Below are positions 1,999-30,502 of a stretch of 30,534 bases of DNA, in pieces. The DNA comes from a virus: positions 1-30,534 of IMG/VR virus record IMGVR_UViG_3300030329_001112; one strand, 5' to 3'. The first letter of the stretch is position 1. Each line of letters starts with the position of its first letter. A program made the translations under genes and the position numbers. The notes under the pieces were generated by a model. That model ran no database searches and was not told where the DNA came from. It saw nothing but the letters and a program-made list of their open reading frames with translations.

Positions 1999-2270
1999 TC
2001 TTCCCGCCCGTCATCCGCCTTGCACAGCACTCGGGTGGACAGGATGCTCTGCTTGGGTATGCAGATTGTGTAGTCCAGCGTGCCCAAGTCAGGCTTCCAC
2101 CCGCCCGAGATGGTGACGCTGTCCTCGGTCTCGTCTACCAAGTGCCCGACCTGAATGATCTTCTGGATCTCGGGCAACTCGGCGGGGTACTCCAACTCAC
2201 AGTTGTCCGCCGGCTCGCAACTGTCCACCCACACTACTCGGACACACGGGAAGTCATACCGCTGCAACAT
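1995..2270 (-). CDS. Hypothetical 91-residue protein
   Basis: A longer frame is open upstream, but that part is antisense-like sequence inside the phosphoesterase gene; ATG 2270 (MLQRYDFPCVRVVWVDSCEP) overlaps the phosphoesterase stop by 17 nt, matching the close packing of the cluster. The small protein looks like a single alpha/beta or beta domain: a strand VRVVWVDSC, a loop with two more cysteines or acids, then VGHLVDETEDSVTISGGW and a C-terminal strand. The VGHLVDETEDSVTIS stretch resembles small phage proteins that I have no name for. It lies between a metallophosphoesterase and a membrane protein. No function is assigned. Confidence 0.7.
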   Translation of the reverse strand: MLQRYDFPCVRVVWVDSCEPADNCELEYPAELPEIQKIIQVGHLVDETEDSVTISGGWKPDLGTLDYTICIPKQSILSTRVLCKADDGREE

Positions 2271-3051
2271 GTGATCTACCCCCAGCCCACTGGTCGTAGG
2301 TCTTGAACACTTCCGTCCTCGCATCCCAGCACCGCCGGGCACGGGGGGACTTGAGCAACTGAGCGCGTCCAATGACAACGCCGTGGCCCCATAGCGTCTT
2401 GTCGGACTTGCCCATGAAGGCTGGGCTGAGTTCCCTTGCACAACCAGGATTGGCACGCCAGAAGTTGAGCGGCCAGTTCGACCCCGCCATGATGCGTTCG
2501 ACCGTGCCGTGTGGCGTGGGCCGGTGCGTGTGTCCGTGGACATACAGCCCGAACTCACGGCACAGGGTGGTGGTTTCTTTCCGTATCCCCGAGGGGGAGG
2601 AGGCGAAGCCGTGACAGAACACCACCTGCCCGAGACGGAAGACGCCTCGGTGCCGGCAGTGCAAGTAGTCAACCGGCTGCTCCCAGTGCTCCAGTTCAGG
2701 CTCATGCCGTGACCAGTGCAGTGCCTCTCGGACACACGGCTCGATGCGTGGGGAGTACAGCCTCCACTCATGGTTGCCGGGCAGGAAGATGCGACGTGCG
2801 GGTGGGTGCGCCTTGCGGATCTGACCCAGCAGTTGGTTGTGCACGTCGTACTCTTGGACGGCAGTCAGTTCGCCAGCGTCGTCAAACTTGCTGGCCCATG
2901 ACATCTCATGTCCGTCACCCAGGTGAACGATGACGTCCGGCTTCTCCCTTGCAATGGTTTCGAGGATAGCGTCGAACGCCGCCTCGTCCTGCAATGGTGC
3001 GTGGACGCAAGAGAATGCGATGAACGAAACGTCCTTATTTGTTCCCGCCAT
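2254..3051 (-). CDS. Calcineurin-like metallophosphoesterase with altered first metal motif
   Basis: ATG 3051 starts inside the 3' end of the giant gene (17-nt overlap) and gives 265 residues. The motifs of the calcineurin-like fold are in order: a first motif SCVHAP at 14-19, GDGHE at 45-49, GNHEW at 92-96, CHG at 146-148 and GHTH at 173-176. Such enzymes hydrolyse phosphomono- or diesters with a two-metal centre; phage members may act on nucleotides or nucleic acid ends. The first motif is normally D-x-H; here the Asp position is Cys (C15-V-H17, codon TGC), which should change or weaken one metal site. Its place at the end of the virion gene cluster, next to the giant polyvalent protein, suggests a late or ejected activity. 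The fold is secure; the substrate is unknown. Confidence 0.85.
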   Translation of the reverse strand: MAGTNKDVSFIAFSCVHAPLQDEAAFDAILETIAREKPDVIVHLGDGHEMSWASKFDDAGELTAVQEYDVHNQLLGQIRKAHPPARRIFLPGNHEWRLYSPRIEPCVREALHWSRHEPELEHWEQPVDYLHCRHRGVFRLGQVVFCHGFASSPSGIRKETTTLCREFGLYVHGHTHRPTPHGTVERIMAGSNWPLNFWRANPGCARELSPAFMGKSDKTLWGHGVVIGRAQLLKSPRARRCWDARTEVFKTYDQWAGGRSHVAAV

Positions 3052-6000
3052 TTGTTTTGATCCCCAATGCTTCGGCAGCCGCCTGCTGCCGTTCAAGTTC
3101 CAGTCTATCTATCTCTCTCTTGAACTCCTCCACCTCTTCATCCGACAGCATGCCAGACCTTATGGCATTCCTACGTTTAGATATTTGACTGCTTCTTGCT
3201 TCCACCCCGTGTTCTTTCAAGTCAGCGATCCTATCCCACTGCTCGTCAGTCCGCTTTGCAGGGTGAGTGCCCGTTACTTCCCTGAGTGCCTCTCGGTACT
3301 TGCTGAGGTAATCGGGCGGCTGAAGCCTCTTCTCATAAATCTGTCCCACCTGCCTCGCAAGTGGCGTCACATTCATGCCGGTCAACTGGCCGACAGCAAG
3401 GGCCAGGTCTTTACCCGCATCGAACGCCCGGCTCTTTACCTCATCCCACTTCTTCTCTTCATCATCAAACCCGTGGACGTTGAACGCATCCAAGATCAGC
3501 CCGGCGTCACCAAACATATCCATGATGGTTCCAACAACCGGCATTTCTGCACCATAGAACCGAACATCCTCGTTCTCAAACAAGGCCCGCTGAACAAGGG
3601 CGGACAACTGGTCACCAATCGGAAGGCTACCGAGGTTGATGTCAAGTAGCGTCCGCCCAAGGTTGTCCACTGAGAATGCCTTGTCCATGTGGGTGACGAA
3701 GTCGTCATCATCCCCACCTGTGAGTGCCCACCAGTACATTTCTGCAATGGTCATCAAGAGTATCGGCGACAGCACGCCAACATAAATAGGCACCTTCAAG
3801 GTTGTTCCCGAGACGTTCCCCCGCCTCGCCTCAAGGGCGGCGCGAGTCATCATGTTGATGTTCTTGTTTCTCTGGGACATGAACATGGTCAACAGTGATG
3901 CCCAGCCTCCAACCCGCTTGGCTTCCCGAGACAGACCGGATGAGTGGAGGACATCCATTGTCGGCTGTGATCTTTGGACTACAGTCTCGGCCCTCTTCGC
4001 AACCTCTTTGTAGTATTCTTCAGAACCAATCTCTATGTTTAGCGCACCGGACTCAATCTCAGAGTCAACCCAATGCTCGCAAGCACGCCAGATTGTTCGG
4101 ATAGCCTGAGCATCGAATGCCTGAATACCCTGCATGCCCCACTCACCGGTCGGCCTGGTCCCCAGAAGGGCCATGGCTTCGACGCCGCCGGACGAGTTCA
4201 CCAGTCCGAATGCAGATGAGTCATTCCTGAACCGTAGGAAGGGTGAGTACCGATCCATGAGAACTTCCGTCCGCTCGTTCTTCTCCTCCTCCACCGGGTC
4301 AGTGAACTGCCGGGTTCCCCTCATGCTTGAAGCACCCCTGCTTGCCACAGCCATACCGATATACTTGTCGGGCATAACAGACGCGGCTTGGATGAGCGAC
4401 ACGACCTGATAGGCCATGACTCGGGGGTTCACTGCAAGCGTACCCTTCGCAAACTTGTTTCGGAAGGAACGCATGGCCGCCGTAGACTCGCCAGACAAGG
4501 GGATGCCGCCGACAATCTCCCGAGCGATGGAGTCGTACAGGTCGTTCCAGTACCTGAATATCCGGTTGCCCCTCTTCATACGATTGAGGCGTGCTGAAAC
4601 TTCCTTGCTCTTGAGCACGCTGCGTGCCGCACGCATGACTGGGGAAAGGTTGTTCATCCCACTCGTAGTCCAGCACAGGTTGGAGAACTTTGCAAAGGCG
4701 TCACTGATTTCAATGGGATCACTGCCACCCGCTCTCTTCTTGCCAATGCCAGCCGAGTCTACGCCGCCCTGAACAATGTTGACTGCGGCCAGTTCCTCTT
4801 CCTTGCCGCCTGTTCGGACCCTCTTCCTCGACCACCAGGTGTCTTCCGACACGTTCGAGTACCCGTGTGCCTGCACTGACCACGCTTCCATGGCCTCCGC
4901 CAGCGGCCCGTTGGCATAAGCAATCATCGCATCTGCTATGACCACCGACCTGCCACCGTTCAAACCCTTAGCAAAGTTCTGGATTGCGACGATGTCTGCC
5001 GCCGTCAAGGTCACGTCCCTTTCCTCAAGGGAGTTCTTGATGTGGATTGGTGCTGGATTCTTAGACAGCAACCACTTGACCGTGTCCATGTCTTGGAATG
5101 TGCACAGCAGGTCAATCAACTCTGCTTCTGTGACCTGTATACTTCCCGCTTCTCCGGGCAGTTCGATGGTGTGCATCTCGGCGGTCACCTTCTTCGGCAC
5201 CCTCTTGGTTCCATCCTCCTCGACCACAAGACGCCTACCCTTCTGCCCCGAAATCACCATGCTCATACGAGTGAGGGCGGAGGTGCCCGCTGAAGTCTCG
5301 ACGTCAATACCCAACTCGGCCAGAACCTCCCGAAGGTAGTCCTGTGACTCGTAGTAGTCCCGAATCATCCCATCGTATGCGTCTGCGATGTCTCGGTACA
5401 TCATCTGCCAGAAGGCCGTGTTGGCCCCACCAGACAGGAGGTCTGCCATCAGGTCCGGCTGCAACTGGGACGTGGAGGTAATACCAAAGAACTGCCGGAG
5501 GTTGAAGATGAACGACGAATCGAATACGCGACGGCCTTCCCGAGTCTTGATGTCCTTGGCGTATGTTCCACTTGCGTTGTTCAACTCTTTGATTATTCGA
5601 GCAATCCTTTTGGCTCGGTCAACCACACCACGCTTGGTCACGATCTTGTTCTTGAGCGAGTTCAGTTTCAGAACCATGCCGATTGCATCGGTCACAGCAT
5701 TAGCCTGTTCTTCTGTGAGATCGGAAACCGGAGTCTGTTCCAGACGAATCAACGCGGACTTCAACCCACTTGAGTTGAGCAAGAGGACCAGTTCTTCGTT
5801 GTGAACCTGCTCTTCAGGCGTCAGTGATTCGATGTACTGCTTGCTCGTAATTCGATCGAGGAACTTGCTGAAAGACCTCAGTTGCCGCTCGGCACCCTCG
5901 GTCATGCGACTCATGCCCAGACTGCCAATGATTGCCTTCATCTCCTCTTTAAACTCGGGCCGCAGTTTGTCTATGCTGAAACTGCTAAGTGCTTTCTTGA

Positions 6001-9000
6001 GTCTTGAGATTGCATTGCGACGGTTTACTTCATTGACCGCCTGGTCAACCTTGCGGTACGCGGACTCAAGCCCCTTCAAAGTTTTGATGTTGGCCCACCG
6101 GAATTGTTTAGGCAGCCGGTCCCGAACCTCAGATCGAATGGCATTCGGCTGCGACTCGACCAGTTCCTCTAGGTTTTTTCGGAGGGACTCGACCGACGCG
6201 GCCTTCGCCTTCATCTTGACACGCAGGTCGGACAGTTGGGTACGAAGGGATTCCTTGTGCTTCTCACGAACGGAAGCCAACCGTTCCTTTGAGGTCTCCC
6301 TCATCTCAGACCGTGCTCTCTTTACGGCTTCGTCCCTCCTCTCACGCCCGGCTTGCCGTTCCTCTTGAACCCGTTCCCGCGTCTCACTTTTAATCCGCTC
6401 CTGCACCATCCTCTCGGCGGTACGCGCCTCGATGGGAGTCACGTCCTCTCGCAGCAACGAACCTTTACTGATGGCCTCCTTCCGCTCCTCCTCCCTAGCC
6501 GCCGCTTCCTGACGCCTGACCCTGCCCTCCTCCAGTCTTGCCTCCCTCTCTTCCGGCGTTTCGTCTACTTCGGCGGGCGCGAACTTTGTCCCAGCAACGC
6601 CTGATTCAACTGCCTCGCTGCTGACCGCAACGCCGGGTGTATTGACGAATACGTTTGCCCCGTCAACGAAATCCGTGCTTTCTGTTTTGACTCCGAGCGA
6701 GTTGTAGAGTTGCTGCTCGAAGTACCAGAGGACTGCTTGGGCTTCTTGGGGCTTGACCCCCGTTCGCTTACCGATTTCTTCGAAGTATCTCTTGGCATGT
6801 GGTCGTGTCCTGGGTGTGGGGGCGTCGTTCAGCCCGGTTTCCTTGCTTGGGTTAAGCAACAACTCTCCAAACTCTCGCGTGAAGAGCCGGTGCGCCCAAA
6901 CATCTATTGTAGTTTCATCCAAGCCAAATATGTTTAAGAAGAATGGCCCGATTTTTTCCCCGAATATGTAGCCGCCGAGGTACTCGTCCTTCGCTTTGCC
7001 CTTAAGGGCCATGCTTGGGGTGACCTTGTACATCGCATTATTAGCCTTAGGGAAGCGTTCGTCCCGGAGGCTTTCGTCTTGTGCAGAAGACCGGCGTATG
7101 TCTCTAAGTTCTTTCAAAGTGTGGGGGCTGGTAAGGAAATCAACCAGACCTCGCTCGCCCATCGTGTTGAGCATGTGCTCAAGCAATCCCAACTGCGTTG
7201 CAATGGTGTTGCCTCGGGGGCCAAACATATTACCGTTGACGTTTGTCCTGGGTATCTTTCCTGTTTCTTTCCAGGTTCCGTATGCGTGAGAAGCGTGGTC
7301 CCAGTTTTCCCTTGCTTTAATACTGTTTGAAAGGGGTGCGACAAACGCGGCGAACACCGCCCTCTTGACGGGGTCGTTCCGAAGTTCGGGGTATACCGCA
7401 GAGGTTATTTCGTAAGCATTCGCAATGACCTCGGAGTACCAGTTGAGGCCGTTTTCGCTTTGCTGCATTTGGTAGTTGAAAGACTCTACACCTCGAAGGA
7501 CTGCGGACTCAAACGCCGCGGCATCTTCGTAGTCATTCTTGACCCCGTTAATTGCAAGTCCAATGTCTCGGACCAACACAATGTTGTTGTTCTTCCCTCC
7601 GGTCGCAACAACTTCTCTCGCAGAAACAAGGTTGGCTCGGGCTTGGGCGTCCGCGCTCATTGGTGCGGGCGCAAAGCGGGGGGCTAGAACGTCTCGTACC
7701 TCTCCCACTGGTTCAGCAGTTGCTGCACCTTCTCGGGGTCGTTCGGGTACTGCTTCTCGTAGTGCTCCCTCATTCCGCTCTTGGGAGGAGGGCCAGTCAC
7801 CGAAGTAGTTGGAACCTGGGTCCGGCCTGTTATACGGGTCGTAGGCTTCTGCGATTTCTCTTGCATCGGTAGTCTCTCCAACGTAGGTCATCAGAACAAC
7901 ATCTGGCCGACCGTCCTTAGTATAGTCCCAAGCCGGGGGTTTGAACTCATCACTCCAAACAGTTCGATGAGTTTCTCGGAAGTTCATGGCGTGGTACAGG
8001 GCCGTCAGGTACCCCTCAAAGGCGTCAAGCGTGGTTGCGCCCCTAGCAATGCCGTCTACCAGGGCCGAAACGCCAGCCCCCTTGACCGACCTGTCGTTGC
8101 TGTACAACGCCTGCATGTCCCATCCGTAGCCGCCCTCATTTCTTCTCAAGAGGTATCCGGTATTACCGGACGGGTCGGCAATAGCGATGGTGTCCCCACT
8201 TCGTATCTCAGCGTTCAAGTCCTCAACACTTGGAAGCGGGCTGAGGTATCCCTTTCGACTAGACTCGGCGTGCCCCTTGACAATTATTTCGGCAGTCGTT
8301 GGGACAAAGTCCATGCCGGGTATGGTCTTCGGCAGGTTAAACTCTTGTTGAGGTGCGGGTGCGAAGCGGGGTGCGGCCTCGGCCTCGACCTCATCAGCCC
8401 CCTTCCTTAGATCACTTGGGACCAGGCCAAACTCACGGGCACGTTCAATGCCAGCCTCCTGTCGGCCAAGTTCAATGTCGGCAATGTCCTTGCCTTCAAG
8501 CAACTGGTCAACGATACGCTGTGCTTCTTCCGCAAACTGACCACGCAAACCGAGGCGGTTGACCAGTCCATTGGCCCAAGCCTTGAACTGACCAAACATA
8601 CCAGCCTCTTTCGAGGCCACCCCAAGTTTCCCTTCCTTGAGCATGCTCTCAATCGCAACCGCAATACCTTCTGAAACTTTGAACTCGGCACTGCCCTCAT
8701 CAAACTGCTCCCCACCCAAGGCACTCTCGCGGTACTTCTCGATGCCCAAGTGGATCTCTCCGGGGGCAAGGGAGATGATGTACTCATACAGTTTGGGGTT
8801 GACGGACTCAAGGACGTGGGTCACCTCATGGCCTATGAGAGCCATAAGGTTGTTGGCCAAAGCCTTGGCCTTCTCTTTTCCCTTGAGGTTGGTAAGGTTC
8901 TGGACATAGATGACACGGCTGTTCGTTGGCGACTGGACGCCCCTGAACACAGCAGGCCCACCCTCTGCCGTGACATCAACAGGCACAACGGTGACGCCAC

Positions 9001-11653
9001 CCTTGGACAAGCGTGAAACGATGGTCGATGTTGTCGCATCCTGCTCTGTCTCCGGCACAACTCGCACGCTGTGGGAGACCTCTCGGCCACGCTCCTTAGC
9101 CTTGGCATCCGCTGCCGCCGAGATGCGATTGATGTCTTGTTGTACCTCTTCCGAAACTTCTGCTTCTTGAGGGGCAGCCTCTTGAGGAGCAACCTCTTGG
9201 TCAGCGGCTTCAGCCGGAGAGAACATAAGCCTCTGCCCGCCTGGCTCGGCCTTCTCTTCTTCCTCCGGCAACTCTTCCTGTGCCACCTCCGGCAACTCTT
9301 CCTTCAACTCCTCCGGCATTTGAGCCTCGGGGATCACAGCCTCCGGTGCTCGCTGCTCAACCTCTACACCCTCAAGACCAAGTCCCTCGGCCTGCTCGTA
9401 GATGTGTGCCTCAGCCTCGTCCACACGATCTTCCGGCACACGCACATTCGCAAGGACATGTCCGTCTTCCCTAGTAACCATCAGGGAAACATGGGACTGG
9501 TCGGCATCAACCTCCCCAAACTCAGACACAACAGATTCCCGCAACGGCTCGCCTTCCTTCTCAGCACTGCGAGCACGGAGCACCGCTGCCCCCTCCGCAA
9601 CAGCCACGGCCCCGGTGGCCTGCTTCCTTTGGAACCCGCCAGCAACAGCCGAAGTTGTGGCAACGGTTCCCGAGGGAATACCAAAGGCTATGAGCCTAGA
9701 CACCCACTCCTCAAGACCCGGCATATGGAGTTCTGCACCCTCTTCAAGAGTAGCCAAGTCAACCCCATATCGGCCCACCATACCTACCCACTCTTCAAAG
9801 TCCTCGCCAATAATGCCGTGATATGCACCGCGAGAAAGCAGGGTGTCGCCGAACTCTCGGACGCCCGCGTTTGGATTCAACCGCAACCACTTGGTGGCAA
9901 CGTGGGCCTTCACCCGGTTCGCAACCGCCTCGGCACCAGCCTTCTTCATCGCCTTGTTTAATACGATGCCGGTTCTCTCGGAGACGTACTCGATGTATGT
10001 GTTTGCAAACGATCTAAGCAGGTCCATGTCACCCACTTCAGATTCAAGAACGGCAGTCAGTTCTTCGGAGTCATCAACACTCAGGGTCGGCATCATCTCC
10101 GAAAGCGAACCCTCAATTATCCGGCTTCCGCCCGCGTATGGTGTCCTGACCAGTTCACCACCAACGGTTCCAACTGCCTTCCCGGTTGCGGTCTGGCCAC
10201 CACGCCTTGCCGATGCTTTGAAACTTGGAATGATTTTACCAGTGCGGCCAGCACCCTTCTTCACGCCAGCCTTCTTCAAGGTGTCTCCAACCACCTTTCG
10301 CAAAGACCTGGATACTACAGCCGTACCACCCTTCAACGCGCCCCGCGTACCAGCGGCACCCAACCCCGCCACGTTTCTCGTTGCAAGAATCTCGGCCATG
10401 AAGGTCAGGGACTCGCCGGTTATTGCACCAGCCGTACCAAGATAGGGAACCCGGCCTTGCAGTTCCTCCGCCTTCATGTCCGCCCAGAACCCGAGCAGGC
10501 GTTTGTTATCCTCTTCAGTCCCCGTGCCAGCCTCAACCCTTTCGGCTGCCGCAACCAGAAATCCAGCCTCGGTAGCATCAATCGCTATGCCAACAAACGG
10601 GATGTCAACGCCCTTCCCGAAAGACTCCCAGAACCCAGCAGGATGGAACTGCTCCATCGGCAAAGGCTCTAGTCCCAACTCCACACGAACCGAGTTCAGT
10701 TCTCGGATACTTTGTCCCCGCTTGAACTCCACGAAGGTGCGTCTTGTGTCTTCGGTGTTGGCAGGAGGCAAACCTTTAGCGGCCCTCTTTGCAACGATGC
10801 CAGCATTAAACCTACTGAACTCAAGGTCAAACAGTGCCGAGTCAACATCAGACTCTACCTTCGCAATGGCGTCGTCCAACTCTTGTTCAGCCGAGACAAC
10901 CACCGCATAGTCACCAACTTCCCCCTTACTAGCGGGAAGGATGCTGTCACCCTCACGCCTTCGGTAGTATTCAAGGTGCAAATCGCGCTCTCGACGATAA
11001 CGCCATTCCGCGTCGTCGATACCCGGCTGCCCCCGCTCTCGGATTTTATTCTCAATAACCTCTTCGACTGAAGGGGGGTGCTCCATTTCATCCAGACCAG
11101 CCTGAGTTCGTTTGACGTTGACGAACCTGGCAGCCGCTTTGGCAGCGGCGTCCGACGTTGTGAACGGGCCAAGTAGTTCCTCGGCCTTGCGTGCATGAGC
11201 AATGATCGCGTACTTGTTATCGTATTCCTTGCCGTCATACGATGTGGGGGCGACGTAATACTTGCCTTGATAATCGACTACCGTGTAGTCCTTCAGTGCC
11301 CCGCTTTCATAGGCCTCTTTTTCCTTCTCAGCCTGCTGAAGGTTACCCCTAAGTTGTTCAAGTTCATCCGACCTGCTTTCATACGACCGGGTCGCCCGGT
11401 CCCTTTCTTCTTGATCAACGGCTAACGGAAACAGTTCTCTGACTTCCGGGCTAATCTCCCTCTCATCAATCCGTAGTTGCTCCTCCGCTTCCTTCTCCTT
11501 TCGCTCCTGCTCCGCCCTCTGAACCCATGGTGCGTCAGACCCCCTCTCCGCATACCGACTTCGGACTTCTTTTAAGCCGCGGGTGTTTAAGTCCTCGACA
11601 TGCGGATGATCCGATGGGGGCCAGGCTTCCTGATTTGTTGGGGGGGAGTCCAT
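3035..11653 (-). CDS. Giant polyvalent virion protein (2872 aa): zincin, GNAT-like, glycosylase-like, coiled coil, membrane segment
   Basis: The gene starts 2 nt after the preceding virion gene with GAGGA before ATG. Residues 1-800 are helical and charged. HEVTH at 942-946 marks a zincin-type metalloprotease module. Residues about 1105-1260 (ending PAWDYTKDGRPDVVLMTY) resemble the acetyltransferase-like module of phage polyvalent proteins. Residues about 1335-1690 are helical, with GEKIGPFFLNIFG then TTIDVWAHR near 1567-1591, reminiscent of a helix-hairpin-helix DNA glycosylase core. A charged coiled coil spans about 1695-1870. The C-terminal third ends with a region like large polyvalent-associated domains (MFMSQRNKNINMMTRAA) and a membrane segment near 2619-2646. 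F-(A/S)-P-A motifs at 810, 1097, 1327 and 1691 fall between modules. Its position matches the large ejected core protein of T7-like phages, so it is probably packaged and injected. Individual activities are inferred. Confidence 0.85.
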   Translation of the reverse strand: MDSPPTNQEAWPPSDHPHVEDLNTRGLKEVRSRYAERGSDAPWVQRAEQERKEKEAEEQLRIDEREISPEVRELFPLAVDQEERDRATRSYESRSDELEQLRGNLQQAEKEKEAYESGALKDYTVVDYQGKYYVAPTSYDGKEYDNKYAIIAHARKAEELLGPFTTSDAAAKAAARFVNVKRTQAGLDEMEHPPSVEEVIENKIRERGQPGIDDAEWRYRRERDLHLEYYRRREGDSILPASKGEVGDYAVVVSAEQELDDAIAKVESDVDSALFDLEFSRFNAGIVAKRAAKGLPPANTEDTRRTFVEFKRGQSIRELNSVRVELGLEPLPMEQFHPAGFWESFGKGVDIPFVGIAIDATEAGFLVAAAERVEAGTGTEEDNKRLLGFWADMKAEELQGRVPYLGTAGAITGESLTFMAEILATRNVAGLGAAGTRGALKGGTAVVSRSLRKVVGDTLKKAGVKKGAGRTGKIIPSFKASARRGGQTATGKAVGTVGGELVRTPYAGGSRIIEGSLSEMMPTLSVDDSEELTAVLESEVGDMDLLRSFANTYIEYVSERTGIVLNKAMKKAGAEAVANRVKAHVATKWLRLNPNAGVREFGDTLLSRGAYHGIIGEDFEEWVGMVGRYGVDLATLEEGAELHMPGLEEWVSRLIAFGIPSGTVATTSAVAGGFQRKQATGAVAVAEGAAVLRARSAEKEGEPLRESVVSEFGEVDADQSHVSLMVTREDGHVLANVRVPEDRVDEAEAHIYEQAEGLGLEGVEVEQRAPEAVIPEAQMPEELKEELPEVAQEELPEEEEKAEPGGQRLMFSPAEAADQEVAPQEAAPQEAEVSEEVQQDINRISAAADAKAKERGREVSHSVRVVPETEQDATTSTIVSRLSKGGVTVVPVDVTAEGGPAVFRGVQSPTNSRVIYVQNLTNLKGKEKAKALANNLMALIGHEVTHVLESVNPKLYEYIISLAPGEIHLGIEKYRESALGGEQFDEGSAEFKVSEGIAVAIESMLKEGKLGVASKEAGMFGQFKAWANGLVNRLGLRGQFAEEAQRIVDQLLEGKDIADIELGRQEAGIERAREFGLVPSDLRKGADEVEAEAAPRFAPAPQQEFNLPKTIPGMDFVPTTAEIIVKGHAESSRKGYLSPLPSVEDLNAEIRSGDTIAIADPSGNTGYLLRRNEGGYGWDMQALYSNDRSVKGAGVSALVDGIARGATTLDAFEGYLTALYHAMNFRETHRTVWSDEFKPPAWDYTKDGRPDVVLMTYVGETTDAREIAEAYDPYNRPDPGSNYFGDWPSSQERNEGALREAVPERPREGAATAEPVGEVRDVLAPRFAPAPMSADAQARANLVSAREVVATGGKNNNIVLVRDIGLAINGVKNDYEDAAAFESAVLRGVESFNYQMQQSENGLNWYSEVIANAYEITSAVYPELRNDPVKRAVFAAFVAPLSNSIKARENWDHASHAYGTWKETGKIPRTNVNGNMFGPRGNTIATQLGLLEHMLNTMGERGLVDFLTSPHTLKELRDIRRSSAQDESLRDERFPKANNAMYKVTPSMALKGKAKDEYLGGYIFGEKIGPFFLNIFGLDETTIDVWAHRLFTREFGELLLNPSKETGLNDAPTPRTRPHAKRYFEEIGKRTGVKPQEAQAVLWYFEQQLYNSLGVKTESTDFVDGANVFVNTPGVAVSSEAVESGVAGTKFAPAEVDETPEEREARLEEGRVRRQEAAAREEERKEAISKGSLLREDVTPIEARTAERMVQERIKSETRERVQEERQAGRERRDEAVKRARSEMRETSKERLASVREKHKESLRTQLSDLRVKMKAKAASVESLRKNLEELVESQPNAIRSEVRDRLPKQFRWANIKTLKGLESAYRKVDQAVNEVNRRNAISRLKKALSSFSIDKLRPEFKEEMKAIIGSLGMSRMTEGAERQLRSFSKFLDRITSKQYIESLTPEEQVHNEELVLLLNSSGLKSALIRLEQTPVSDLTEEQANAVTDAIGMVLKLNSLKNKIVTKRGVVDRAKRIARIIKELNNASGTYAKDIKTREGRRVFDSSFIFNLRQFFGITSTSQLQPDLMADLLSGGANTAFWQMMYRDIADAYDGMIRDYYESQDYLREVLAELGIDVETSAGTSALTRMSMVISGQKGRRLVVEEDGTKRVPKKVTAEMHTIELPGEAGSIQVTEAELIDLLCTFQDMDTVKWLLSKNPAPIHIKNSLEERDVTLTAADIVAIQNFAKGLNGGRSVVIADAMIAYANGPLAEAMEAWSVQAHGYSNVSEDTWWSRKRVRTGGKEEELAAVNIVQGGVDSAGIGKKRAGGSDPIEISDAFAKFSNLCWTTSGMNNLSPVMRAARSVLKSKEVSARLNRMKRGNRIFRYWNDLYDSIAREIVGGIPLSGESTAAMRSFRNKFAKGTLAVNPRVMAYQVVSLIQAASVMPDKYIGMAVASRGASSMRGTRQFTDPVEEEKNERTEVLMDRYSPFLRFRNDSSAFGLVNSSGGVEAMALLGTRPTGEWGMQGIQAFDAQAIRTIWRACEHWVDSEIESGALNIEIGSEEYYKEVAKRAETVVQRSQPTMDVLHSSGLSREAKRVGGWASLLTMFMSQRNKNINMMTRAALEARRGNVSGTTLKVPIYVGVLSPILLMTIAEMYWWALTGGDDDDFVTHMDKAFSVDNLGRTLLDINLGSLPIGDQLSALVQRALFENEDVRFYGAEMPVVGTIMDMFGDAGLILDAFNVHGFDDEEKKWDEVKSRAFDAGKDLALAVGQLTGMNVTPLARQVGQIYEKRLQPPDYLSKYREALREVTGTHPAKRTDEQWDRIADLKEHGVEARSSQISKRRNAIRSGMLSDEEVEEFKREIDRLELERQQAAAEALGIKTNGGNK
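6572..6586 (-). other. F-A-P-A linker motif 4 in the giant protein
   Basis: Codons for KFAPA (residues 1690-1694) lie between the glycosylase-like module and the coiled coil. It is the fourth copy of a recurrent linker motif. Confidence 0.5.
7661..7681 (-). other. F-A-P-A linker motif 3 in the giant protein
   Basis: Codons for PRFAPAP (residues 1325-1331) are identical at the amino-acid level to the copy at 1095-1101. They separate the acetyltransferase-like module from the helical glycosylase-like module. Confidence 0.55.
8351..8371 (-). other. F-A-P-A linker motif 2 in the giant protein
   Basis: Codons for PRFAPAP (residues 1095-1101) lie between the zincin-containing region and the acetyltransferase-like module, preceded by an acidic linker rich in Glu and Ala. 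Confidence 0.55.
9212..9226 (-). other. F-S-P-A linker motif 1 in the giant protein
   Basis: Codons for MFSPA (residues 810-814) follow a long Glu/Pro-rich linker and precede the zincin region. The variant MFSPA matches the F-(A/S)-P-A pattern of the other three copies. Confidence 0.5.
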
Positions 11654-26175: not shown

Positions 26176-26421
26176 TTATCTCCCAGTAAATCTGTCTTCG
26201 TCTTGATCTGAATCATCGGCAGAATCAAGAATGTGAATCAAGGACATGAGCAGTTGAAGGAGTTCTTCTGGGCTTTCCGCTGCAACGAATGCACATGGCG
26301 GCTTGCTCATGTTGTCCTCTTGTATGTACATAAACCCAGAAACCTCATGGTCATTCATAATCGAAATCGCGTCTTCCGACAAATCAGCCAGACACAGGTT
26401 GATCGGATCATAGTTATCCAT
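26176..26421 (-). CDS. Acidic hypothetical protein after TerL (81 aa)
   Basis: ATG 26421 overlaps the terminase large subunit stop by 8 nt (ATGGATAA); an upstream extension is rejected. The 81 residues contain an alpha/beta pattern (SEDAISIMNDHEVSGFMYIQ, then PPCAFVAAESPEELLQLLMS) and a very acidic C-terminus (DSADDSDQDEDRF). It may be a small accessory factor for packaging or head assembly; acidic tails of this kind can bind basic partners such as the lysine-rich peptide encoded next. No family is recognised. Confidence 0.65.
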   Translation of the reverse strand: MDNYDPINLCLADLSEDAISIMNDHEVSGFMYIQEDNMSKPPCAFVAAESPEELLQLLMSLIHILDSADDSDQDEDRFTGR

Positions 26422-28276
26422 CAATGCTCTCCCACACTTCGGCATGATTCATGATCTCGCCCATAGTCCCCGTAAGGTACTTGGGCACAACGACATCAAA
26501 GTGCGGCACTTCATTGCGAAGGAACACGCAGCCGGCGTATGCGATGACGCGGTCGCCGTGGGACTCGCGGGCACCAGTACGCTCATCACGCATGGTGCCG
26601 GGTCCGATGCTGCCGTCCTCGAAGTACACATACTCAAGGAGTTCTTTCAGCCCAGCCTCTGAATGGATCGTGATCTCGTTTCGAGCAAGGGAGCGAGACA
26701 GGGCCGACAGGAGAATACGCTTGCTGCGGCGATCACTACGCCAGCCATATCTACGAGAGGAGCGGTCGGTTCGTTCGCCCACCGAACGCTGGTAGTACAC
26801 GTTGGTGTAGTCCTGACGACGCATATCCTCGTAGAACGCCTCGCCTGGCCCGTTGACTTCCCAGCCGATGAACGCCGTGTCCGACCCCGAGAACACCGTA
26901 TTGCCAGCCAGTGCGGCCTCCTCCGCCAAGTCATGCGGAGAGATAAACGGGTCCACGAACTCAGCCACAACGTCCCCGCCGCCGATACCCATGGCAGCGA
27001 TGGCCGAGTTGCTCGACCCCTTGCCGGATGAGATGTCAGCGAACATGACGTAGTTGTCCATCTCAGGCAGATCCCAGACATACCAACGACCCGCATCGAC
27101 CGGGATGAACTGGCCCTTGTGGATCTCGCACCTAGTCGGCTTGGAAGCGTGGCTCTGGATATGGCGGGACACAGTGGATGCGGAGAAGAACAGATCACCC
27201 GAAGTGGTGTGGTCGATCAGAATGTTCTGACCGATGTCAGACGTGTCTCCACGTCGAGCAACCTGCTTCTCAAACCAAGGAGTCCACCAGAACCAGCGGC
27301 CAGCAGTGCCGGTCATATCGCCGTCCTCGTCCTTGATCCACTTGCGTCCTCCGCCTTTACCGGGGTGGTCCCAGTATCCAAGCGTCAGGATCTTAGGAGA
27401 TCCGTGCTTTACGCCACGCTCCCAAAGCCGAGTGAACTCCGTGCCCGCACCAAGCGGCGTCGAGTTTGCCACACGGCACGACGTTGTATCTGCCGCCGAC
27501 TGCCAAGCAGCACGGCCATTCTGCATGGACGCCATTTCATCGAACAGCACAAAGGTACGACGACCACCACGGCCAATATGCTCCGTGGTTGCCTGACCAG
27601 CAATCGTGCTCGATGTCTTGGGGTTTACCAACTGCATGTGGCTGCGGTGCTTCCCACCACGACGCATGTCCTCATACTTGGCTGGCAGCATGCTCGGCGG
27701 CAAGTTCTGGATGATGTAGTCGATCTTCCAGAACAACGTATCGGGGTCGCCGGTTCGGTCTACCAAGTCCTCCACACGCGAGGTCAGCAGGACTTGAGAA
27801 CCTGGTGCAAACAGCCACTGCCACACAGCAGTGGTAATGCAGATCCAAGAGGCACCCATGTCACGCGACTTGTCAATCAAGACGTCCCGCCCCTCCAAGA
27901 TCGCCGAGTTGAGTTCTCGGAATGCTTCGTTCTGGACGGGCCAAGTGATGAATGGTACATGCTGTTCTTGGGCCGGAATCTCGCATCCGTCGTCGTCCAC
28001 CGTCTTGACGTTGTACGTCCATGCGAAGTAGTTGACCCAGAACAAGATGGACTTACGACAAAGGTCGAGAACCCGATCCCTAGTGGATTCGGTCTCGACT
28101 GCAAAGAGCAAGGTTTCGCGTTCTTCTCGGTTCCGGTCTGGGTCAGACCAGATGATGGCACCGGAGTCAGGATCTTCCCAACATTCTGGGATTCTGATCT
28201 CCGCCGTCTTCGGTGGGAGTGGCGCGTCCTGCGTCTTTTTCTTCGATGAGGTTGTCGTTCCGTCGAGTGAGGGCAT
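26414..28276 (-). CDS. terL: Terminase large subunit (ATPase/nuclease)
   Basis: The packaging motor threads DNA into the procapsid with its N-terminal ATPase and cuts it with its C-terminal nuclease. Numbering from ATG 28276 gives 620 residues. A Walker A-like SRDMGAS lies at 137-143, in the variant form with Arg before Asp, and Walker B FVLFDEMA at 242-249 with the catalytic Glu at 247. The nuclease acids of the RNase H-like domain are D414 (ADISSG), E473 (GWEVNGPG) and D576 (SHGDRVIAYAG). The start is uncertain: no clear ribosome site precedes ATG 28276 or the in-frame GTG 28312, and either would overlap TerS by more than 100 nt. The product is coupled to the acidic protein that follows. 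Family assignment is secure. Confidence 0.95.
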   Translation of the reverse strand: MPSLDGTTTSSKKKTQDAPLPPKTAEIRIPECWEDPDSGAIIWSDPDRNREERETLLFAVETESTRDRVLDLCRKSILFWVNYFAWTYNVKTVDDDGCEIPAQEQHVPFITWPVQNEAFRELNSAILEGRDVLIDKSRDMGASWICITTAVWQWLFAPGSQVLLTSRVEDLVDRTGDPDTLFWKIDYIIQNLPPSMLPAKYEDMRRGGKHRSHMQLVNPKTSSTIAGQATTEHIGRGGRRTFVLFDEMASMQNGRAAWQSAADTTSCRVANSTPLGAGTEFTRLWERGVKHGSPKILTLGYWDHPGKGGGRKWIKDEDGDMTGTAGRWFWWTPWFEKQVARRGDTSDIGQNILIDHTTSGDLFFSASTVSRHIQSHASKPTRCEIHKGQFIPVDAGRWYVWDLPEMDNYVMFADISSGKGSSNSAIAAMGIGGGDVVAEFVDPFISPHDLAEEAALAGNTVFSGSDTAFIGWEVNGPGEAFYEDMRRQDYTNVYYQRSVGERTDRSSRRYGWRSDRRSKRILLSALSRSLARNEITIHSEAGLKELLEYVYFEDGSIGPGTMRDERTGARESHGDRVIAYAGCVFLRNEVPHFDVVVPKYLTGTMGEIMNHAEVWESIDG

Positions 28277-28724
28277 TGAGTCTTTGAACAATATGGGCAA
28301 TAGGAGGAGCACTGTGAGTCATGTCGATGCTTCCGCCGTCCGGCCCGGACATTTCCAGTTTCTTCTTTGGGTTGAACATCTCGGGGAAGAATGCACGAAG
28401 GTACATTTCCTTCCCTCGGGGGTCTCCGTCATTAAACGCTTCGCTGTACCCGACAGCAAACGCTGTCTCGGCCAGTTCGTCGTAGATACTTATGAACGCT
28501 CTGCGATACGAGGGGGAGTCCTTTAGCCACTTGTAGTGGTTGCTAGGATCAATGGCGATAGCCTTGGCCGCCTTCTGCACGACCAAGATGTCCTTGAACT
28601 TCTCCAAGAACAGACGTTGCCGCTTGCTCAATGGGCGGTGAGGCACATTGGCAGCGTCGTCCGCAGCGATCTGGTTGCGGATCTTCTCAACAGTCTTCGG
28701 CCAGGGTAGTCCGCCTCGGCTCAT
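28167..28724 (-). CDS. terS: Terminase small subunit
   Basis: ATG 28724 overlaps the previous stop as ATGA; a longer frame upstream encodes a Cys/Trp-rich extension that looks non-coding. The 185-residue product has an N-terminal helical part, a helix-turn-helix at about 45-75 (VVQKAAKAIAIDPSNHYKWL followed by KDSPSYRRAF) in the HYxWLKxxPxYxxAF style of terminase small subunits, and a long oligomerisation region. The C-terminus is charged and disordered. It recognises the packaging site and activates TerL, encoded immediately downstream with an overlap of 110 nt. Well supported by motif and neighbour. Confidence 0.88.
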   Translation of the reverse strand: MSRGGLPWPKTVEKIRNQIAADDAANVPHRPLSKRQRLFLEKFKDILVVQKAAKAIAIDPSNHYKWLKDSPSYRRAFISIYDELAETAFAVGYSEAFNDGDPRGKEMYLRAFFPEMFNPKKKLEMSGPDGGSIDMTHSAPPIAHIVQRLNALTRRNDNLIEEKDAGRATPTEDGGDQNPRMLGRS

Positions 28725-29098
28725 TGATACCTCGCAATGTAAAGGTAAACAACACAGATGCCAGAGCCAGTGCCGCCACCGCTTGCAGTAAACTTTAGTT
28801 TGCCGTGGCACGCCATTCCATTATCCAAATCCGCTTGAGTAATGACTTGGTGGTCATCGTCCTTGTCAATGGCAGCACCCTTGCCGTTAAGGACGTCGGT
28901 CGCCGTGTCATCCGTAACAACCAAAACCCAGTTGTCATCAGGCAGCGTTGAAGCATCGTGGTCATAAACCACTTGAGTCACATACCCGTAATACTCATGG
29001 GTTGTTGTGTTTTCGATGCTGTCAGTGCCAAAGGTCAATGTAGCCTTAATCAACTGCATCGCATGGTCATGCTTTTCGTAGTCGAATACTATTGCCAT
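28721..29098 (-). CDS. Hypothetical structural protein (125 aa)
   Basis: ATG 29098 begins 2 nt after the previous stop with AAGGA upstream. The 125 residues are beta-rich (LIKATLTFGTDSI, YGYVTQVVYDHDA, DNWVLVVTDDTATDV, GKLKFTASGGGTGSGICVVY), likely a small beta-barrel or sandwich. The final SGICVVYLYI strand resembles small phage head or fibre-base proteins. It lies between membrane and packaging genes, so a minor virion role is possible. No family is recognised. Confidence 0.65.
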   Translation of the reverse strand: MAIVFDYEKHDHAMQLIKATLTFGTDSIENTTTHEYYGYVTQVVYDHDASTLPDDNWVLVVTDDTATDVLNGKGAAIDKDDDHQVITQADLDNGMACHGKLKFTASGGGTGSGICVVYLYIARYQ

Positions 29099-29100
29099 AT

Positions 29101-29385
29101 CTAATCCTTACGTCGATCTTGTTCGTCCAACTTCCCAATCCGTTCCCAGTCTGGGTCCATGTGGTTCAAGAGTCGAATCATTGTTTCCAGTCGAATGATT
29201 GAGTTATCCAACGCTCGCGTTCGGTCAATCAGTTTGGTAATCATATTCCACTGGGCATCCAGTTTGCCCATAAGGTGGTTCATCATCCAGCGGCCCAAGA
29301 AATAAATGCCACCCATCAGCACAAGTGCGATAAATACCGGGAAGCCCAGTGTCTCTATGGTCTTGAGTATGTCGCTGCTTTCCAA
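29101..29385 (-). CDS. Holin-like membrane protein with coiled-coil tail (94 aa)
   Basis: The frame starts at TTG 29385; an AGGGA lies 9 nt upstream and no ATG is available before the membrane segment, so this unusual start is preferred. Residues about 13-33 (LGFPVFIALVLMGGIYFLGR) form one transmembrane helix. An amphipathic charged region follows (DAQWNMITKLIDRTRALDNS), probably a coiled coil. One N-terminal membrane helix plus a charged tail resembles BhlA/UviB-type holin-like proteins, which would permeabilise the inner membrane at lysis. No endolysin is present nearby. It could alternatively be a virion membrane anchor. Confidence 0.6.
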   Translation of the reverse strand: MESSDILKTIETLGFPVFIALVLMGGIYFLGRWMMNHLMGKLDAQWNMITKLIDRTRALDNSIIRLETMIRLLNHMDPDWERIGKLDEQDRRKD

Positions 29386-29412: not shown

Positions 29413-30084
29413 TTAGCGCTTACGTCCGCCTTTTCGCCCACCGGCCCGCATAGAAGATGTTCGCATCTTCCCCGCCGCTCCGCCGCCCTCGACATACTTG
29501 ACTGTCAACTCTGGACGGTTTCCTGTGGTCGAGTTGTCCCCAGTCTTAATACTGAAAGAATCTGTTGCACCACCCGTTCCCTCCGCTTGGTCCTTCAAGA
29601 CGATGTTCAAAACCTTGCTTCGGTTCTCAATAGCGTCCCTCACAAGGGGAGTAATATCAATGTCGTGATCACCAGTGGACGTAGGGAAAAGACCACAGGT
29701 TGTAGAAACAGTCGTGTCAATGCTTCCGCCAGAAGCAGACCAGTTGTTGGATCCATCCTTTGCGGTGTGCGTGGGGTAACTGGAACTTTCAGTCCAGTCA
29801 GTTTCCGAACTCCTTACCGCTTGAAGAGTGTTTGAGGTTCCAGAAGCAGCAGATCCAACATTCAATGTAAGAATGCCAGACGTGATAATTGCATTGTCAG
29901 GAATCTCATCCAACCCCATCTGTAGGATGTACCGATAGTTAATCGTCCCACCCATCGCCGCCACATGGCCTATGTTTCCGGTGACAGAGGTACCGCCCCT
30001 AGCCGACCCGGCACTGTACAAGTGGCCGTCTTTAAACGTGCCAGCCCCAGATACGCCGTCTTGAAATGTAGCAGTCTGAGCCAT
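29413..30084 (-). CDS. DNRLRE-like beta-sandwich virion protein with basic tail (223 aa)
   Basis: Coupled to the previous gene by TAATG. After the start MAQTATFQDGVSGAGTFKDG come strands typical of DNRLRE/CBM-like domains: YRYILQMGLDEIPDNAIITS with ILTLNVGS, then SETDWTESSSYPTHTAKDG plus NNWSASGG, then DHDIDITPLVRDAIENRSKV, and finally SIKTGDNSTTGNRPELTVKY. In these domains the pattern of I-x-S-A/G-x-L-x-L and WtE...W is conserved, and many occur in secreted or phage structural proteins. A glycine- and arginine-rich tail (MRTSSMRAGGRKGGRKR) follows, perhaps for attachment to DNA or another virion part. Probably an appendage or adhesin-like virion protein. Confidence 0.7.
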   Translation of the reverse strand: MAQTATFQDGVSGAGTFKDGHLYSAGSARGGTSVTGNIGHVAAMGGTINYRYILQMGLDEIPDNAIITSGILTLNVGSAASGTSNTLQAVRSSETDWTESSSYPTHTAKDGSNNWSASGGSIDTTVSTTCGLFPTSTGDHDIDITPLVRDAIENRSKVLNIVLKDQAEGTGGATDSFSIKTGDNSTTGNRPELTVKYVEGGGAAGKMRTSSMRAGGRKGGRKR

Positions 30085-30377
30085 TACCCCTCATCTCCAT
30101 CAATGCCGTACTGGTATCGAACGGTGCGGCAAGAGTGTCCACCCACCTTGTAGTCTCTACAGTGCTTTGGCCGATACTCGTACTTGCTGCAATTCATCTC
30201 ACAATCCAACCAAACACACGGCATGTTTCGCCCACGGTTCGTCATGTTGTAGTGCGCAAGTTCATGCTGTATCTCGTTTGGCAAGTTGTCGATCTCACTA
30301 CCTGCAAACGGGGGCAGTCCTGCATCCATGCAGCACGCCCCACAATTATCACAGTTGTCAATGACGGGTAGTTGCAT
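30084..30377 (-). CDS. YkgJ-like CxxCxxCC zinc/iron-binding protein (97 aa)
   Basis: ATG 30377 overlaps the upstream peptide stop as TAATG. The N-terminus has CDNCGACC (about residues 9-16), and downstream come PCVWLDCEMNCSKYEYRPKH, then CRDYKVGGHSC. This set of cysteines in the order CxxCGxCC...PCxxL...C..Y..RP..CR.Y is the signature of YkgJ-type zinc or iron chelating proteins (related to FliB-type methylase N-termini). Bacterial members may load or sense metals; the function in phages is unknown. The stop overlaps the next start by TAATG. The family is clear, the biological role is not. Confidence 0.85.
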   Translation of the reverse strand: MQLPVIDNCDNCGACCMDAGLPPFAGSEIDNLPNEIQHELAHYNMTNRGRNMPCVWLDCEMNCSKYEYRPKHCRDYKVGGHSCRTVRYQYGIDGDEG

Positions 30378-30502
30378 TAACCCTTCTTAACCCAAGGCAG
30401 TTTCTTATACAGCCACTGGGGGAAGCCAGTTGCCTGAAGAAGACAGCCGGTTACTACGCTTGCAACCAGTGTGAGTACAGCAAAGACAATGTTGATTTCC
30501 AT
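30377..30502 (-). CDS. 41-residue single-membrane-pass peptide
   Basis: The gene is preceded by CGGAGAAATAGAT before ATG 30502 and ends in TAA shared with the next start (TAATG at 30377-30380). The peptide MEINIVFAVLTLVASVVTGC carries a hydrophobic helix with a Cys near its end, followed by a short basic tail (LYKKLPWVKKG). The Cys after a hydrophobic run at residue 20 hints at a lipobox (VTGC), though the segment before it is longer and less basic than a typical lipoprotein signal. It could be a pinholin, a small spanin-like lipopeptide or another membrane peptide. It is the first - strand gene visible; the cluster may continue beyond the right edge. Confidence 0.65.
   Translation of the reverse strand: MEINIVFAVLTLVASVVTGCLLQATGFPQWLYKKLPWVKKG

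Follow-up and report, generated by a model that had tools for sequence, protein, structure and literature searches.

A YkgJ-type cysteine-rich protein from an uncultured phage lineage looks like optional cargo of an exchangeable late cassette

The occurrence of a YkgJ-type protein, with its CxxCxxCC motif, among the late genes of a phage raises the question of what such a protein does there: whether it supplies metal to a virion enzyme, services or forms part of the virion, or acts on the host cell. The locus was analysed in a linear virus record (30,534 bases; hereafter the window), from which the gene order was read on the minus strand. In this order, a 41-aa hydrophobic peptide (P41) is followed by the 97-aa protein under study, a 223-aa protein, a 94-aa membrane/coiled-type protein (TM94), a 125-aa protein (D125), and the small and large terminase subunits (TerS and TerL); a portal or connector protein comes later (Table 1). 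The 41-aa and 97-aa reading frames lie where the preliminary description placed them, with CDNCGACC in the longer frame and a one-base TAATG stop/start overlap at their junction; an overlap of the same kind leads from the 97-aa frame into the 223-aa frame.

Table 1. Features of the late locus, and the two enzymes proposed as metal clients, in the window.
Feature	Position	Strand	Basis
41-aa hydrophobic peptide (P41)	30377..30502	-	ORF, 24-row alignment, junctions, hydropathy
97-aa PF03692 (CxxCxxCC, YkgJ-type) protein	30084..30377	-	PF03692 33.9 bits, cut-off 23; alignments; purifying selection
223-aa DNRLRE/CBM96-like beta protein with Lys/Arg-rich C-terminal tail, exchangeable neighbour	29413..30084	-	NF033679; fold matches
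94-aa membrane/coiled-type protein (TM94), phrog_18771	29101..29385	-	PHROG match
125-aa protein (D125), same late slot	28721..29098	-	ORF
Terminase small subunit (TerS)	28167..28724	-	phrog_4044, E 3.3e-07
Terminase large subunit (TerL), basis of the lineage tree	26414..28312	-	phrog_2, E 2.4e-11
2872-aa giant protein, zincin motif HEVTH at residue 942	3035..11653	-	DUF7178 26.9 bits, just under cut-off 27; HExxH
280-aa metallophosphoesterase	2254..3096	-	PF00149 38 bits, cut-off 21.5; phrog_221

The 97-residue protein and its relatives

The assignment to the YkgJ-type family is supported by Pfam (Table 1), and the intact cysteine set by alignment. PF03692 scores above its cut-off in all 14 late-slot copies (the window, 12 relatives and G223, the record of L071), and the eight family cysteines are retained in each of them, with CxxCxxCC, the downstream cysteines and RPxxC in place. 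In the window these eight, out of nine cysteines in total, are residues 9, 12, 15, 16, 54, 63, 73 and 83. The corresponding columns do not vary across all 23 rows aligned, representing 12 late-slot phages, two other phages and nine of the 12 fetched Planctomycetota loci, an alignment which omits the near copies L004 and L042, the L038 frame with its in-frame TAG, and the Planctomycetota loci L053-L055; the proteins of these last three, more distant, loci keep CxxCxxCC and RPxxC and lack CxW.

The gene is under purifying selection, with dN smaller than dS in seven of the seven pairs for which dS was computable (the window/L005 pair having no computable dS), as illustrated by the dN/dS values of 0.035/0.298 for the window against L001, 0.046/1.01 for the window against L002, 0.097/0.576 for L028 against L071 and 0.075/0.741 for L034 against L037. 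The gene is taken to be beyond chance, since dN lies well below dS in relatives, the cysteines are invariant, and, when 100 mononucleotide shuffles of the window were searched for seven of these eight cysteines plus CxW and RPxxC, none of the 11,935 ORFs (60 aa or longer) had the pattern. The protein contains no hydrophobic stretch (highest 19-residue mean 0.63). No solved structure was matched by sequence, and the AlphaFold model, with a mean pLDDT of 48.5, is of too low a quality for a fold search. The sole PHROG match, to phrog_32498 (function not annotated), covers the cysteine core and at E 0.0058 is too weak for membership. The tree of the PF03692 family is poorly resolved, with 3 of 20 inner branches starred, and was used for alignment only.

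PF03692 is widespread, being found in 9 of 14 control genomes of bacteria and archaea. Bacterial standalone PF03692/YkgJ proteins share with the phage protein their size, the eight cysteines and the PP, CxW and RPxxC motifs; in contrast to them, the phage protein sits in a late phage cassette and is exchanged between phages, its placement relative to the cellular proteins being not firmly resolved. The nearest cellular relatives found here are small standalone YkgJ-type proteins of Planctomycetota. A genome scan of 84,980 species with three peptide patterns led to two confirmed loci, both in Planctomycetota, whose proteins are 34 and 44% identical to the 97-aa protein, and a profile search restricted to Planctomycetota matched 8 of 199 genomes at E <= 1e-8. 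This TerL was found in none of 294 Planctomycetota genomes, a search which had no positive control and so shows little on the host.

FliB is the only PF03692-comparable protein with tested biochemistry found in the literature, surveyed mostly at listing level. It is reported to carry a [4Fe-4S] cluster, to methylate flagellin lysines and to have eight conserved cysteines, including a cysteine-rich motif that its authors compared with PF03692 and whose mutation removed the [4Fe-4S] signals (PMC8598068). Because of the PF03692 family and this cysteine-motif result, we infer that the 97-aa protein may bind an Fe-S cluster ([4Fe-4S]) or Zn. The FliB motif is CX4CX3CC, as opposed to CX2CX2CC here, and the FliB model spans 373 positions compared with 97 aa. 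Membership in FliB was rejected: the NCBIfam scan of the 97-aa protein returned no match at E <= 1, and the FliB model NF038110 matched none of eight records (the window and seven others) at the same limit, the 14 control genomes also being without a match over the cut-off, so that the sensitivity of this search is not shown.

E. coli biofilms reportedly contain more filamented cells at 24 and 48 h when ykgJ is deleted (PMC8743551), which is a lead and not a test. A phage protein with this domain name has already been published, namely ORF 123 of phage R21Y (PMC10671443), a likeness of name that is known here by annotation alone. In 50,697 deposited phage records, tblastn gave no match to the 97-aa protein (E limit 0.01) nor, at an E limit of 0.001, to four further PF03692 proteins of phages, searches that would miss distant members, and no functional study of a phage PF03692/YkgJ member was found in a literature search at listing level.

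Presence, absence and exchange of the gene

Viral contigs were scanned with the protein and its alignments, with TM94 and with TerL, in the last case taking the best 80 of 541 relatives. The slot set comprises 24 records, including the window, in which the stretch from P41 towards the terminase genes is readable. The gene is present in 14 of these (the window, L001, L002, L003, L004, L005, L026, L028, L034, L036, L037, L042, L043 and L071) and absent from the other 10 (L032, L068, L072, L073, L074, L076, L077, L078, L079 and L082), in agreement with PF03692 searches of the whole records. These counts refer to records and not to independent events, L028 and L042 having identical PF03692 proteins, L003 and L004 nearly identical ones, and L073 and L074 identical TerL. 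Several gene-lacking slot records contain two D125-like ORFs.

The surroundings of the gene vary in detail. Extra proteins lie between P41 and the gene in L001 and L002. In L036 (5980-6330), the PF03692 frame seems to start at an ATT overlapping the stop of the preceding peptide, the usual place being without ATG, GTG or TTG. Three tiny Lys/Arg-rich proteins surround the DNRLRE gene of L002 in the same late slot (4254-5505), and further small basic ORFs were seen in L032 (1205-1366) and L078 (6377-6649).

The preliminary description had coupled the gene to a 41-residue peptide with a VTGC run. The peptide itself, with its TAATG junction and one hydrophobic stretch (highest 19-residue Kyte-Doolittle mean 2.33), is confirmed; the VTGC cysteine does not stand as a general feature, being present in 7 of 24 copies only and replaced by A, S or M in the other rows, with the preceding glycine kept in all 24. 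A lipobox is therefore unlikely, and was rejected as an assignment. In each of the 14 gene-bearing slots P41 precedes the gene; it also occurs in the 10 gene-lacking slots, where it is no independent finding, as these records were recognised partly by P41. Since P41 is also found in these slots, it does not belong to the PF03692 gene, and a specific coupling of the two was likewise rejected, the same TAATG junction entering a D125-like gene in L032, L072, L073, L074, L079 and L082. Upstream of P41, in L005 (5145-5872), two proteins are encoded, one of 72 aa with a single hydrophobic stretch and one of 170 aa that has several such stretches and whose start resembles a lipobox; this pair recurs in nearly all slot records and, by reading of the sequence, looks like a lysis or membrane module.

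On the TerL tree, at least three gains or losses are needed to account for the presence of the late-slot gene. This tree has 24 rows, 22 of the lineage and two distant (L089 and L090, labelled as without the late-slot gene, each having another PF03692 protein elsewhere), and it includes 12 of the 14 gene-bearing slot records, the stretches of L001 and L042 being without TerL; TerL is partial in L034 and L043, and that of L037 was taken from L025, a stretch of the same contig. The window and L005 are 85% identical in the PF03692 protein and 64% in TerL, and L028 and L071 show 87 and 64%, respectively; the window and L037, conversely, share 46% in the PF03692 protein and 86% in TerL. Because the type of PF03692 protein thus disagrees with TerL, the gene or its cassette has been exchanged between phages.

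Related proteins are encoded in three other phage contigs (L038, L044 and L045), the fetched stretches of which are without the terminase, portal and P41 genes of the slot, and the distant TerL relatives L089 and L090 have another PF03692 protein, adjoining a phosphoesterase-like and a RusA-like protein by reading of the sequence; its scores are 30.3 bits in one and, in the other, 22.8 bits, or 24.6 when the frame neighbours are included. By reading of the sequence, DNA-methyltransferase-like genes lie near the PF03692 genes of L044 and L045. The YkgJ-like frame of L038, on a 101-kb phage contig, is interrupted by an in-frame TAG (5990-6360), so that either the stop is recoded or the gene is broken. 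A PF03692 protein directly follows a phosphoesterase-like protein near a RusA-like one, both named by reading, in two distant TerL relatives (L142 927-1232 and L143 741-1298).

TM94 of the window is 98-100% identical in L003 and L004 despite a TerL identity of about 65%, and looks like a mobile late module, recurring on other phage contigs in stretches that lack this TerL. The contigs found via TM94 only (L008-L011, L013-L020, L022 and L023) gave no close TerL match and no CxxCxxCC ORF in the fetched stretches, and were not counted as evidence of gene absence. By its own gain, loss, movement and exchange among relatives, the 97-aa gene looks like optional cargo in an exchangeable late cassette of this uncultured phage lineage, a cassette that is best read as being of adsorption type.

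The exchangeable neighbour

The coupling of the gene to a virion-like protein, which had also been described, is borne out by the 223-aa product. It matches DNRLRE (NF033679) at 44.5 bits against a cut-off of 34, and its model (mean pLDDT 70.0) has its best fold matches in carbohydrate-binding modules, one for chondroitin sulfate (8wab, E 2.8e-07) and one for alginate (7vbo, E 1.0e-05), followed by BMP9 prodomains at E of about 1e-04; it can accordingly be placed with DNRLRE/CBM96 proteins on the profile and the carbohydrate-binding fold, PF24517 itself staying below cut-off (21 bits against 26). The viral model that matches best is an uncultured phage's fibronectin type-III domain protein, and CBM96, tail and tail-fibre proteins are found among the first 21 matches. 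The modelled fold makes this a probable sugar-binding protein, and a role at the virion surface is likely because of the DNRLRE match, the carbohydrate-binding folds and the phage CBM96 and tail matches.

The gene adjoins its exchangeable neighbour in 14 of 14 slot copies, separated at most by a 45-aa peptide, a basic one found in L002. The neighbour is of DNRLRE type in 10 of the 14 gene-bearing records and is an unrelated-looking, beta-rich-looking protein of 415-422 aa in L003, L034, L037 and L071. A Fisher test of the link between gene and neighbour (12/12 versus 4/10) gave p 0.0028, with the tree holding three independent pairs, of which one is informative, and with the neighbour of L078 scored as present by reading, tblastn not having found it. 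Between records, the body of the neighbour may be wholly different and a Gly- and Lys/Arg-rich C-terminal tail kept, as if it were a docking part; the basic tail is common to the proteins of the window (29413-30084), L003 (2467-3720), L034 (4673-5941) and L037 (1204-2469), the ends having been read in the last three.

What the protein may do

According to the preliminary description, the protein may load metal into a virion enzyme, the zincin or the phosphoesterase, and this is not supported, both enzymes being found in records without the gene. The phosphoesterase accompanies the gene in the window and G205 and is present in all four gene-lacking slot records longer than 40 kb (G211, G229, G230 and G231). 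Among records extending as far as the giant protein, its zincin was found in all three that bear the gene (the window, G203 and G205) and, with HExxH, in 3 of the 5 that lack it (G226, G229 and G231); the giants of G211 and G230 (the records of L032 and L079; 3665 and 3027 aa), both without the gene, have neither HExxH nor a profile match. This split leans towards the earlier proposal; it is not significant (Fisher p 0.46) and is too small to settle the matter alone. Records that end too early and are without a match were left uncounted, namely, for both enzymes, the 16-kb G223, which has the gene, and the 22-kb G224, which lacks it, and, for the phosphoesterase, G203 and G226; 11 distant TerL relatives gave no match to the zincin or the phosphoesterase. 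A lack of co-occurrence together with a variable position in relatives had been named as grounds for giving the proposal up, and these apply in part: both enzymes occur without the gene, and its position is before the neighbour in 12 of 14 records and after it in two (L034 and L037). Metal loading is thus not supported as a specific link. An ART-PolyVal domain, scoring 74.6 bits, in the giant protein of L005's record agrees with the polyvalent proteins of PMC5512222, for which processing by such zincins is proposed there; the word YkgJ is absent from the main text of that article.

The reading favoured here, at about even chances, is that the 97-aa protein is an accessory Fe-S or Zn protein of an exchangeable late cassette, most likely at work inside the host cell during late infection. 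It would be a standalone PF03692 protein, its complete eight-cysteine site kept by selection, which would be made late, with the virion genes, and would stay soluble in the host cell. As a metal-cluster protein it would act on host physiology, on a redox, iron or metal-dependent host process, rather than feed a virion enzyme, and the other earlier idea, that it interferes with host iron handling, comes near to this host-acting reading.

Three alternatives place the protein in the service or the structure of the virion. Because the gene stands beside the neighbour in every slot copy, a role on that protein is conceivable, if rather unlikely: the 97-aa protein might service the carbohydrate-binding surface protein by methylating lysines of the basic tail as a FliB-like [4Fe-4S] enzyme, or by assisting its folding as a redox or metal chaperone, for which the Lys/Arg-rich tails common to neighbours with different bodies, and the chemistry of FliB (PMC8598068), could also be adduced. 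Against it stand the DNRLRE-type neighbours without the gene in L068, L076 and L077, the absence of NF038110 and NCBIfam matches (the former also lacking in the controls), and a length far from that of the FliB model. A bolder form drawn from the FliB analogy, in which a minimal 97-residue Fe-S protein-lysine methyltransferase would travel with exchangeable phage adsorption proteins and methylate lysine-rich tails as FliB coats flagella, is highly improbable. Late-cluster position beside a CBM96-like protein would suit a small metal-binding component built into the virion, perhaps into its adsorption apparatus; such a part is an unlikely identity for a gene that is optional in the lineage, with 10 of 24 slots lacking it, and that has relatives in other contexts in other phages. 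The loading of zincin or phosphoesterase is very doubtful, for in addition to the gene-lacking records with zincin (three) or phosphoesterase (four), some 21 and 27 kb separate the gene from its supposed clients in the window; the points in its favour are the zincin in all three gene-bearing records that reach the giant and its absence from two of the five gene-lacking ones, and the PF03692 protein of L089 and L090, which by reading directly follows a different phosphoesterase-like protein.

The result weakens the tempting story of a phage metal loader. In keeping, swapping and selecting a bare PF03692 domain, this phage lineage offers a minimal version from which the role of the domain may be learned.
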